Positions 41,053 through 43,544 of a stretch of 57,143 bases of DNA are shown one piece after another. The notes under the pieces were generated by a model. The model was not told the origin of the DNA. It was given only the letters and a program-made list of their open reading frames with translations, and searched no databases. Numbering within the stretch: the first letter of the stretch is position 1; each line of letters opens with the position of its first letter. The stretch is from a bacterium (lineage in GTDB: Bacteria; JAJRZV01), in contig JAJRZV010000130.1 in assembly GCA_024275095.1 (NCBI GenBank), positions 1 through 57,143 of the forward strand, written 5' to 3'. The position numbers and the translations under genes were made by a program.

Positions 41053-41076
41053 GGGGTCAGGTCTTGACATTTGACA
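41053..41076 (+). repeat. Left 24-bp terminal inverted repeat of the RAYT element
   Basis: It begins GGGGTCAGGTCTTGAC and ends TTTGACA. It is the exact reverse complement of 42060-42083. It lies 21 bases after the cytochrome stop at 41031. Confidence 0.92.
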
Positions 41077-41119
41077 TTTTTGGTTGAATAAAAATTTTCT
41101 GTCTTTTAAAATACTTTTC

Positions 41120-42079
41120 ATGGCGCGTCCTTTAAGAGTCCAGTTTGAAGGTGCTTTTTATCACGTATTTGCCAGAGGTAATCGTAAGGAGCATATTTTC
41201 TATTCTTACAGGGATTATTCAGTGTTTCTTGAGAAACTTGCAGAAGCAGCGAAAAAATACAGCCTTCTTATTTATGCCTATGCACTCATGCCCAATCACT
41301 ATCATCTGGCGGTTGAGACTCCATTTGCCAATTTGAGCGAAGCCATACATTTTCTTAACAGTGCTTATACAAACTGGTTTAGAGAAAAACACCAGATTGT
41401 GGGACCAATTTTTCAGGGCAGATTTAAGTCCGTTATCGTGGATAAGGATTCTTACCTGCTTTCTCTTGTTGCCTACATTCATTTGAATCCAGTTAAAGGT
41501 CGCCTAGCCGAGTCGCCTGAAAAATATCTCTGGAGCAGTCACAGATTTTATGTGAAAGAGAAAAGGGCTCCTGAATGGCTTGCTGTGGGTCCGGTTCTTT
41601 CAATGTTTTCTTCTGGATCAGGAAAAGGGAGAAAGGCTTTTCATCGTTTCGTTACAGGGTTCCGAATAGATCTTGAGCAAGAGATAAAAAAGGGTTTTAT
41701 TCTGGGGGATGAAAGTTTTGTAAATATGATTCAGGAGAGGGTGAAATCATCCAGGTTGTCTCCGGAAATTCCTGAGGCAAAGAGGTTGATGTGGAAAGTG
41801 GATGCTCCTGAAAGAGCTGTGGAGCTCATACGTAAAATTGAAGGGTGGAGCGAGAAAGAGGTGTTTTCTCCGAGAAGTGATGCTCATAAAATCACTGTCT
41901 ACCTTCTTAAGAAATTTTCACCCTTTTCCCTTCAGGAAATTGCTGAGTTATTTAAAACCCATTACTCCAGTCTAACGGTAAAGGTAAAGAGATTTGAAAA
42001 GAGAATGGCCAACGACCGGAAACTGCGAGAGAAAGTTGAGGAAATAAAAAAGAGGTATTTGTCAAATGTCAAGACCTGA
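41120..42079 (+). CDS. REP-associated tyrosine transposase (RAYT, Y1_Tnp family)
   Basis: HUH-type single-strand transposase related to IS200/IS605 TnpA. MARPLRVQFEGAFYHVFARG and the HUH motif PNHYHLAVET (about residues 60-70) are present, and YIHLNPVKGRL holds the likely catalytic Tyr. RAYTs act on short palindromic repeats. The C-terminal 110 residues, missing from the smallest members, look like a DnaA-C-type DNA-binding helical domain (SPFSLQEIAELFKTHYSSLT). I took ATG 41120 (319 residues); the frame is open from a TTG at 41084 without support. The stop is inside the right inverted repeat. Base composition is AT-richer than the flanking cytochrome genes, which fits recent arrival. Confidence 0.92.
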   Translation: MARPLRVQFEGAFYHVFARGNRKEHIFYSYRDYSVFLEKLAEAAKKYSLLIYAYALMPNHYHLAVETPFANLSEAIHFLNSAYTNWFREKHQIVGPIFQGRFKSVIVDKDSYLLSLVAYIHLNPVKGRLAESPEKYLWSSHRFYVKEKRAPEWLAVGPVLSMFSSGSGKGRKAFHRFVTGFRIDLEQEIKKGFILGDESFVNMIQERVKSSRLSPEIPEAKRLMWKVDAPERAVELIRKIEGWSEKEVFSPRSDAHKITVYLLKKFSPFSLQEIAELFKTHYSSLTVKVKRFEKRMANDRKLREKVEEIKKRYLSNVKT

Positions 42080-42083
42080 CCCC
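42060..42083 (-). repeat. Right 24-bp terminal inverted repeat of the RAYT element
   Basis: It reads TGTCAAATGTCAAGACCTG then ACCCC, the exact reverse complement of 41053-41076. It contains the transposase stop (42077-42079) and the ATG (42066) from which the downstream lipoprotein is read. Confidence 0.92.
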
Positions 42084-43544
42084 AAGGGGGTTGTTGTATG
42101 GGTTGTGTGGGTTTTGGTAATTGTGTGTGGATGTGCAGAGGGAAAGCAGGCCTGGAAGCTCGATTCTTTTCTGGGACGCACGATTTTTGAGACCGATGCC
42201 ACAGGTTACTTTCGGGTGGAGCAAAGGAATAGAACGTGGTGGATCATAACACCGGAAGGTCACCCATTTTTTTCCACCGGTGTCAATGCTGTGCATCCCT
42301 ACGGCTATTACGTGAAGGCACTGGGATATTCCCCGTACCGGGAAGCGGTGAAGTCAAAATACGGGGATGAAGATGCATGGGCTTCTGCCACCCTTCAAAG
42401 ATTGTTAAGCTGGAATTTCAACACCCTTGGAGCATGGAGCGCTTATGACCTTTTCAATAAGGTGGGAATCCATTCGCCTTCTGTGGACGAGCTGGAGGAG
42501 CAGGCATATTCAACACCGGCAACATTCCGAATGCCGTACACGGTGATTCTCTACACCTCGGGTGCCTCATGGCTGAGAGGAACGATTGTGGATTTCTTTT
42601 CCCAGGAATTCAGAGACCACGCCTATAAGGTGGCAGAAAGTTATTGCAAGCCGTTGAGTACAGACCCCTATCTCCTTGGTTATTTTCTGGATAACGAGAT
42701 GAGGTGGGGAGTCGACTGGCGTGGAGCTAAAACATTCTTTCAGGAATATTTTTCACTGCCTGCAACAGCTCCCGGGAAGCAAAAGCTGGTGTCATTTCTC
42801 AGGTCCCGATACAGAAACGATGTGAATTCTTTGAACTCTGCATGGTGTGTGTCTGTAAACGATTTTGATGACCTGCTCTCGATGACCGAACTTCAGGGTT
42901 GCCGACCGGAGACACCGGAGGCAAAGGAAGACCGCTCGGAATTCCTCTACCTTGCTGCAGGCGAATATTTCCGTGTGAGTGCTGAAGCCATTCATGCCTA
43001 CGATCCCAATCATTTAATCCTGGGTGCTCGCATACAGGCACTCGTTGCTCCTCCGGAGGTGGTGAGAGCGTGTGGAGAACATTCGGATGTTGTGAGCATC
43101 AATTTCTACGAACTGGAAGGATTGCTCGAGGAATATATCCAGCGTGCAGGAGAGGCATTCGGATATCCTTCGGGCTATCTTTCTGCAGAGGACAACTTCA
43201 GGCTTTTTTATGAAATTACGGGCAAGCCGATTCTCATCAGCGAATTTGGTTACCGGGCCGCGGATTCTGGACTTCCCAATTCGTATCCTCCCGGCTTTCT
43301 CACTCTTCCGAATCAGTATGAACGTGCCGCTGCCTTTGAGCGTTTTGCTGTTCGTGTGGCTTCGGCACCGTGGATTGTGGGGTATCACTGGTTTTCCTGG
43401 GTGGATGAGCCGGAGGAGGGCCGCTTTGACGGTGAAGATTCTAACTGGGGAATTGTCAATGAAGACGACGAGCCTTACCTTCCACTTGTGGATAAAATGA
43501 CAGAAGTGAACAATTCTGTGTGGGAAATCCATAAAGATCACTGA
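42066..43544 (+). CDS. Glycoside-hydrolase-like lipoprotein (GH50 agarase-like fold)
   Basis: A 492-residue, probably lipid-anchored protein (VVVWVVWVLVIVCGCAEG, lipobox Cys about residue 23). The phrases RTWWIITPEGHPFFSTGVNA, WNFNTLGAWSAYDLFNKVGI, LLGYFLDNEMRWGVDW (candidate acid/base Glu in DNE) and GKPILISEFGYRA (candidate nucleophile Glu) match the TIM-barrel clan of GH50-type beta-agarases and beta-galactosidases. Substrate is unknown. Its ATG lies inside the RAYT right repeat, and the repeat encodes the first residues (MSRPDP), including the only positive charge before Lys7. The native start seems to have been replaced by the element; SD GAGG lies in the transposase's last codons. Confidence 0.8.
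   Translation: MSRPDPKGVVVWVVWVLVIVCGCAEGKQAWKLDSFLGRTIFETDATGYFRVEQRNRTWWIITPEGHPFFSTGVNAVHPYGYYVKALGYSPYREAVKSKYGDEDAWASATLQRLLSWNFNTLGAWSAYDLFNKVGIHSPSVDELEEQAYSTPATFRMPYTVILYTSGASWLRGTIVDFFSQEFRDHAYKVAESYCKPLSTDPYLLGYFLDNEMRWGVDWRGAKTFFQEYFSLPATAPGKQKLVSFLRSRYRNDVNSLNSAWCVSVNDFDDLLSMTELQGCRPETPEAKEDRSEFLYLAAGEYFRVSAEAIHAYDPNHLILGARIQALVAPPEVVRACGEHSDVVSINFYELEGLLEEYIQRAGEAFGYPSGYLSAEDNFRLFYEITGKPILISEFGYRAADSGLPNSYPPGFLTLPNQYERAAAFERFAVRVASAPWIVGYHWFSWVDEPEEGRFDGEDSNWGIVNEDDEPYLPLVDKMTEVNNSVWEIHKDH

Follow-up and report, generated by a model that had tools for sequence, protein, structure and literature searches.

The window, the whole 57,143-nucleotide stretch of bacterial DNA analyzed here, carries a 1,031-bp element at positions 41053 to 42083, in which perfect 24-bp inverted repeats flank a gene for a 319-amino-acid Y1 transposase. 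The left repeat (41053 to 41076, minus strand) is complementary to the right repeat (42060 to 42083, plus strand) at 24 of 24 positions (100%); the right repeat has the sequence TGTCAAATGTCAAGACCTGACCCC. The transposase gene (41120 to 42079, plus strand) is intact, running from an ATG at 41120 to a TGA at 42077 to 42079, and its RAYT/TIRYT-like product has an HUH motif (NHYHL in the alignment) and a tentatively DnaA-like C-terminal stretch. Its last codons (SNVKT-stop; GTC AAG ACC TGA) are encoded by the right arm, which holds the transposase stop in one frame and reads MSRPDP in another. The second of these frames leads into the gene for a 492-residue GH50-agarase-like lipoprotein (42066 to 43544, plus strand), of which codons 1 to 6, ATG TCA AGA CCT GAC CCC, are the last 18 nt of the right arm. 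Since the end of the transposase gene and ATG 42066 both lie in this arm, the two genes overlap by 14 nt.

The transposase matched the Pfam family Y1_Tnp (PF01797) with 41.2 bits, against a cut-off of 23. Its score with the NCBIfam model for REP-associated tyrosine transposases, NF047646, was 64 bits, under the cut-off of 80, and we therefore term it RAYT-like, not a canonical RAYT. NCBIfam DnaA models matched residues 253 to 312 (E value of 6e-6, with scores far below their cut-offs), and Pfam Bac_DnaA_C gave no match to the transposase at an E value of 0.01. No GTAG tag is present in the flanking GGGGTCAGGTCTTGACATTTGACA inverted repeats, which in this differ from GTAG-tagged palindromic REPs. 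The sequence GGGGTCAG, which begins the left repeat, fits the GGGGWSAS consensus given for the inverted repeats of TIRtrons (TIRYT) in the sections consulted of Di Nocera et al. (2013; PMC3733652); the same sections describe TIR-family repeats found also as single copies and dimers, and the legends mark as 3'ov an overlap with the 3' end of the transposase gene. In the sections consulted of PMC6006769, RAYT group 1 of Bertels is placed in TnpA_REP subclass 2.1, for which a C-terminal helix-turn-helix (Bac_DnaA_C, HTH_23, or HTH_28) and an absence of REP-like sequences near the genes are reported. Judged from its sequence, the window element fits an IS-like TIRtron whose HUH transposase is of the RAYT family, whose repeats are of the GGGGTCAG type, and whose transposition activity is putative; it also fits subclass 2.1, an assignment made by features and not by a tree. 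The likeness to both groups lies in the Y1/HUH transposase, a tentatively DnaA_C-like C terminus, and GGGGWSAS repeats that are also found single and dimeric. A full element in genome G039 (L237) has the identical overlap of transposase stop and ATG, and its transposase also ends in SNVKT-stop. The transposases of the two elements are only 32% identical, yet the 24-bp repeat and the in-repeat SNVKT-stop end are identical.

The lipoprotein profile matched the beta-agarases 4bq2 (E value of 4e-78) and 4bq4 (3e-77); for the GH50 entries 4bq2, 4bq4, 5z6p, and 6xj9, the E values ranged from 4e-78 to 7e-67. Pfam Glyco_hydro_42 was matched with 24.9 bits (cut-off, 21). The protein appears from these matches to be related to the solved GH50 beta-agarases; agarase activity is putative. 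The first-pass annotation had placed the start codon inside the right repeat, its Shine-Dalgarno (SD) sequence in the last codons of the transposase, and the residues MSRPDP in the repeat, and all three placements were confirmed: ATG 42066 falls within 42060 to 42083, codons 1 to 6 coincide with the arm as given above, and an SD-like GAGGT lies at 42052 to 42056 (plus strand). The duplex energy of GAGGT, -7.2, is near the median of -6.3 that is obtained when the best-scoring start of each of 44 window ORFs is taken; among random positions inside genes, 7.3% reach a value this low. Only 6 open codons precede ATG 42066 in its frame, and there is no other ATG, GTG, or TTG among them. Three in-frame starts were tested with a PS51257-type lipobox pattern. 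The signal passed from ATG 42066, with the cysteine of the lipobox (VCGC) at residue 23, and failed from GTG 42105 and TTG 42114; the pattern is strict, with 5 of 7 chosen homologue N termini passing and those of L057 and L059 rejected. The repeat had also been credited with the positive charge of the export signal, and this is wrong: R3 and D5 cancel to a net charge of zero, and K7 is the first codon outside the repeat. The best reading is that ATG 42066, in the end of the element, is the start of the window lipoprotein gene.

A different start has to be weighed against this one. The element could lie just upstream of the gene, with a fortuitous open frame through the repeat, and translation could begin at the in-frame GTG 42105 (42105 to 42107, plus strand), giving a short uncharged signal. 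The homologues L057 and L059 make this GTG a fair rival, since their signals are very short (MIAILLLACTQ and MWFLLLYACSP), with 8 uncharged residues before the cysteine, and the product from GTG 42105, MWVLVIVCGC..., resembles them. Upstream of the GTG is a strong SD-like G-run (42086 to 42090, just outside the repeat; energy of -10.1 for this start), and it counts against ATG 42066 that this run is a stronger SD-like sequence than GAGGT. It ends 14 nt from GTG 42105, however, and the only start at a good distance from it is ATG 42098, which is out of frame. Moreover, from GTG 42105 there are 9 uncharged residues before the cysteine and the lipobox pattern failed (as it also did for L057 and L059), and VVVWV just upstream of the GTG extends the h-region unbroken. 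For N-terminal REPs in general, Di Nocera et al. (PMC3733652, in the sections consulted) suspect that most of those in N-terminal coding regions are extragenic and that the starts are misannotated. As an observation in its own right, the GGGGG run with ATG 42098 seven nucleotides on (42086 to 42100), out of the lipoprotein frame, has an SD energy of -11.5, the lowest of 7 sites.

The open frames that start in the repeat are also at chance level, which favors the GTG. The 24-mer occurs at 20 places in the window genome (up to 3 mismatches), and among the 21 ends listed for this genome, 2 give an ORF of more than 100 codons from the repeat ATG: the lipoprotein gene and a 127-codon ORF antisense to a cytochrome gene. 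From genomes G000, G037, G039, G061, G073, G399, and G400 we collected 80 distinct ends that carry the exact 18-mer, with orthologous copies included and identical ones merged. At 14 of the 80 ends, the ATG frame stayed open for 120 codons or more in the outer flank, compared with 19.8% of random outward positions; the next frame was open to this length at 10 of 80 ends and the third, which meets a TGA within the repeat, at 6 of 80. Raw ORF length from the repeat was rejected as evidence on this comparison, and the 127-codon ORF (L002) and a 225-codon ORF in L237 were dropped as unsupported. Taking both sides together, we regard a start at GTG 42105 as possible and rather doubtful. It is fairly probable that the right repeat of the TIRtron, placed at the 5' edge of the gene, supplies ATG 42066, aided by the SD sequence in the transposase codons and by the 14-nt overlap. 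We infer both the use of ATG 42066 in the window and the loss of the native start on insertion.

The window genome is the sole member of its phylum in the genome set, and relatives of the lipoprotein are distant. Five of 59 genomes gave a match, its own included, with 43% identity for the best other one; a scan of genome contigs yielded 164 relatives, and the best 80 of these reach at most 48% identity over the best segment; a scan of viral sequences for relatives of the lipoprotein found none. The first-pass annotation had looked to relatives without the insertion for the native 5' end. That comparison gained little from such distant homologues of the window gene; it did bear fruit at two loci in another phylum, where the N termini with and without the repeat differ.

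Exact copies of the 18-mer are present in three of four genomes of one genus of that phylum, with 13 in G073, 34 in G399, and 14 in G400; G316 has none. In G073, G399, and G400, which represent three species, a CCA-adding-enzyme-like gene is immediately preceded by a full element of the same orientation. The head domain of the product, PolyA_pol, scored above the Pfam cut-off, and the NCBIfam CCA tRNA nucleotidyltransferase models scored below theirs. From the upstream in-frame stop to the GTG of the conserved IVGG motif, the repeat ATG is the sole ATG, GTG, or TTG in all three genomes (CTG codons in G399 were not treated as starts). The N termini with the repeat start read MSRPDPIVPIVEIKLIAEKYPDSYIVGGAVRD (G400), MSRPDPIVEIKLIAEKYPDSYIVGG (G073), and MSRPDPIYELKLIAEKYPGSYIVGG (G399). 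A match of more than 50% identity was found in 6 of the 16 genomes of the phylum, and the 3 without the element differ at the N terminus, with presumed starts giving MKSEIKIRDAAIPREIEFIASKYPG (G316, from a GTG), MEEIINEMNFIAG (G199), and MKNRIEEIANTLEFLAG (G401). Codons 7 to 46 differ between G073 and G399 by 21 synonymous and 5 nonsynonymous changes, and codons 47 to 170 by 40 and 24, respectively; G400 has a 9-nt in-frame duplication right next to the repeat. The changes in codons 7 to 46 and the in-frame duplication indicate that the stretch past the repeat evolves as coding sequence. These genomes have a second, more distant CCA-family gene (30 to 33% identity), so the CCA-like gene cannot be called essential from sequence.

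The surroundings of this gene differ between carriers and noncarriers of the element. The upstream gene, which was named by eye as that of a peptide-transporter-type ATPase, extends past the start of the CCA-like gene in G316. In the carriers G073, G399, and G400, the upstream gene enters the left repeat (...GSGLDI) and stops there (G399) or a few codons on (G073 and G400), and the right repeat holds the start of the CCA-like gene. In G316, 101 nt separate the shared parts of the two genes, and nothing outside the element corresponds to them in the carriers; the insertion may have deleted them, or G316 may differ for another reason.

A peptidase-U32 gene (Pfam PF01136) also starts in the repeat, with the N termini MSRPDPQLFQLLAPAGS in G073 and MSRPDPQLLAPVGS in G399 and with no alternative start nearby. 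TrhP and UbiU models, scoring below cut-off, match the protein from residues 5 and 7. The U32 protein of G316 begins MELLAPVGS, and its ATG overlaps the stop codon of ispG (named by eye), the gene upstream. In G399 a repeat pair ends the upstream gene (...KNGVRS-stop) and starts the U32 gene; in G073 the upstream gene stops before the single repeat that remains at this locus. The junction CCCC-CAATTATT is alike in G073 and G399, so a single insertion may account for the U32 case. G399 has a second U32 copy, which, like the U32 gene of G400, begins MPRIELLAPAGS; from the start onward the two agree at all of 3,034 nt. Given this identity and the 6% contamination of G399, the second copy may not belong to G399. 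The CCA-like gene in three species and the U32 gene in two lend good support to the view that a repeat of this type can stand in for a native start, both clear loci being in one genus. The end repeat would then start two unrelated genes in one genus and probably the window gene in another phylum, and the supply of a start by the repeat is probably an exaptation. The earlier proposal that the element replaced the native start of the window gene is strengthened by the same repeat at the CCA-like and U32 loci, where element-free relatives have other N termini, and is weakened in that the window alone leaves GTG 42105 as a rival.

Several further loci were set aside. An XDH-like gene (named by eye; L177/L181) that seemed repeat-started in G073 and G400 has a GTG just downstream. 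It was dropped on the comparison with G316, which has a broken repeat at this locus (the exact 12-mer repeat core is absent from the 1.02 Mb examined of this genome); there, a stop between the broken repeat and the GTG makes the downstream GTG the likely native start. The gene is thus, in the genus of G073, a case of the downstream start that GTG 42105 would represent in the window. A ComF-like gene (L241; named by eye), a permease gene (L237), and a PTS IIB gene (L223) were ambiguous, each with an in-frame start just past the repeat, and MurB (L225) and MurG (L227) have in-frame ATGs after it.

Whole repeat pairs are open in another frame, from a TTG start (LTFDI...NVKCQDLTP), at L228 and L161 (both G399) and at L180 (G400). 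These second-frame reads reach LpxB, NadB, and an NTP-transferase gene; the only possible starts are TTG codons that precede the repeat end, and from there to the conserved part of these three there is no ATG, GTG, or TTG. G316 has other N termini for LpxB and the NTP transferase and gave no match to NadB in the part examined. The second-frame TTG cases were not used for the main claim of start supply.

Two further readings compete with a repeat-supplied start in the window. The gene might be a relic, the insertion having removed the native start and left no useful translation, with the frame intact only because the insertion is recent. The perfect repeats and intact transposase fit a recent insertion, and there is no ATG, GTG, or TTG in the 21 nt from the cytochrome stop to the left repeat. 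The 492-residue frame is intact, however, with a usable SD sequence and a predicted signal, and genes elsewhere are retained with the repeat start; we consider a relic improbable. A pre-insertion start at TTG 41028, overlapping the cytochrome stop, was noticed by eye and is not claimed: its SD sequence is weak (-2.5), and a one-base overlap would be required at the junction. Alternatively, the junction could be an assembly artefact at the repeated 24-mer, of which the assembly has three exact copies, one of them (L245, 3889 to 3912) at the end of contig C86. That contig ends one base past the copy, so the assembly broke at the repeat there. The window, however, spans both repeats and a coherent transposase gene that ends in the repeat as it does in G039, and an artefact is very improbable.

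In the reading that we prefer, with the start at ATG 42066, an element inserted in the right frame at a gene's 5' edge would leave the gene translatable, with MSRPDP replacing native residues. The right repeat is short and open outward in the ATG frame and would provide an ATG and five codons for the downstream gene; ribosomes would start at ATG 42066, helped by the SD sequence in the last transposase codons and by the 14-nt overlap, and the h-region and lipobox would come from sequence outside the repeat. Selection would remove insertions that silence needed genes. As a tentative extension, which we think somewhat unlikely, the repeat might serve as a self-sealing joint: inward, a stop in two of three frames would close the upstream gene, and outward, the ATG would open the downstream one, so that the element could land in overlapping operon genes without silencing them and be kept by host dependence. 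In G039, 18 of 29 repeats (up to 2 mismatches) have the ATG followed by a stop, TGA or TAA (16 with TGTGAAATGTGAAG and 2 with TGTAAAATGTAAAG), a count that does not favor selection of the repeat as a supplier of starts.

Start supply by the ends of RAYT or TIR elements was not found in the open-access papers searched, and a literature search with pieces of the repeat sequence gave no match. In the sections consulted of PMC3733652 and PMC6006769, the repeat as the start of a neighboring gene is undescribed, which sets the present cases apart from TIRtrons and subclass 2.1 as presented there. Related phenomena are on record. The termini of GTAG REPs often give stop codons (TAG), according to the sections consulted of PMC3733652; these and the intragenic REPs of that paper are alike in that a mobile repeat adds coding signals or codons to a host gene, and they differ in that GTAG REPs give a stop, whereas the repeat here gives a start, at 2 loci without a downstream ATG, GTG, or TTG before the conserved part. 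Rickettsia palindromic elements and MITE-ORF fusions (PMC2229807 and PMC10969869, as far as consulted) are small mobile repeats translated in host proteins, and the signal peptide of Yersinia YPO1552 is described as partly MITE-formed (PMC2229807). The likeness there is in-frame translation of a small mobile repeat, once in an export signal; the difference is that MITE fusions involve MITE bodies or internal insertions, whereas the end repeat of a transposase-bearing element acts here as start codon. Beside the known supply of stops and the MITE fusions, the supply of start codons by such ends looks like a new variation.

Such cases would mean that a mobile element can come to set the beginning of a host protein. 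They suggest a route by which the loss of an element becomes difficult even though its transposase is not domesticated, the end repeat being the translation start of a host gene; the CCA-adding-enzyme-like gene in three species is an example of such retention. N-terminal extensions of REP type have been suspected as annotation errors, and here there are cases without a downstream start, against which start-site annotation beside such repeats can be checked.

Other arrangements of these repeats were also seen. In the window genome (G000) a second repeat type, TGTCAAATGTTGAGACC[A/T]GACCCC at 17 of 20 places, one of them with TGTTAAATG, has its own transposase copy on contig C36 (L007). Many of its ends are single, most having no partner in the stretch examined (up to 1.5 kb on each side) at up to 6 mismatches. 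This type (MLRPDP) gave no ORF of more than 81 codons among the ends listed, which, like the count in G039, speaks against a dedicated function. G399 contains 13 inverted repeat pairs with starts 49 to 60 nt apart, an arrangement like that of REPINs. A DEAD-box helicase gene of G039 with an MrfA Zn-binding domain (L236, 943 to 4212) contains a single in-frame copy of the repeat, which encodes ECQMSRPDP between conserved parts.
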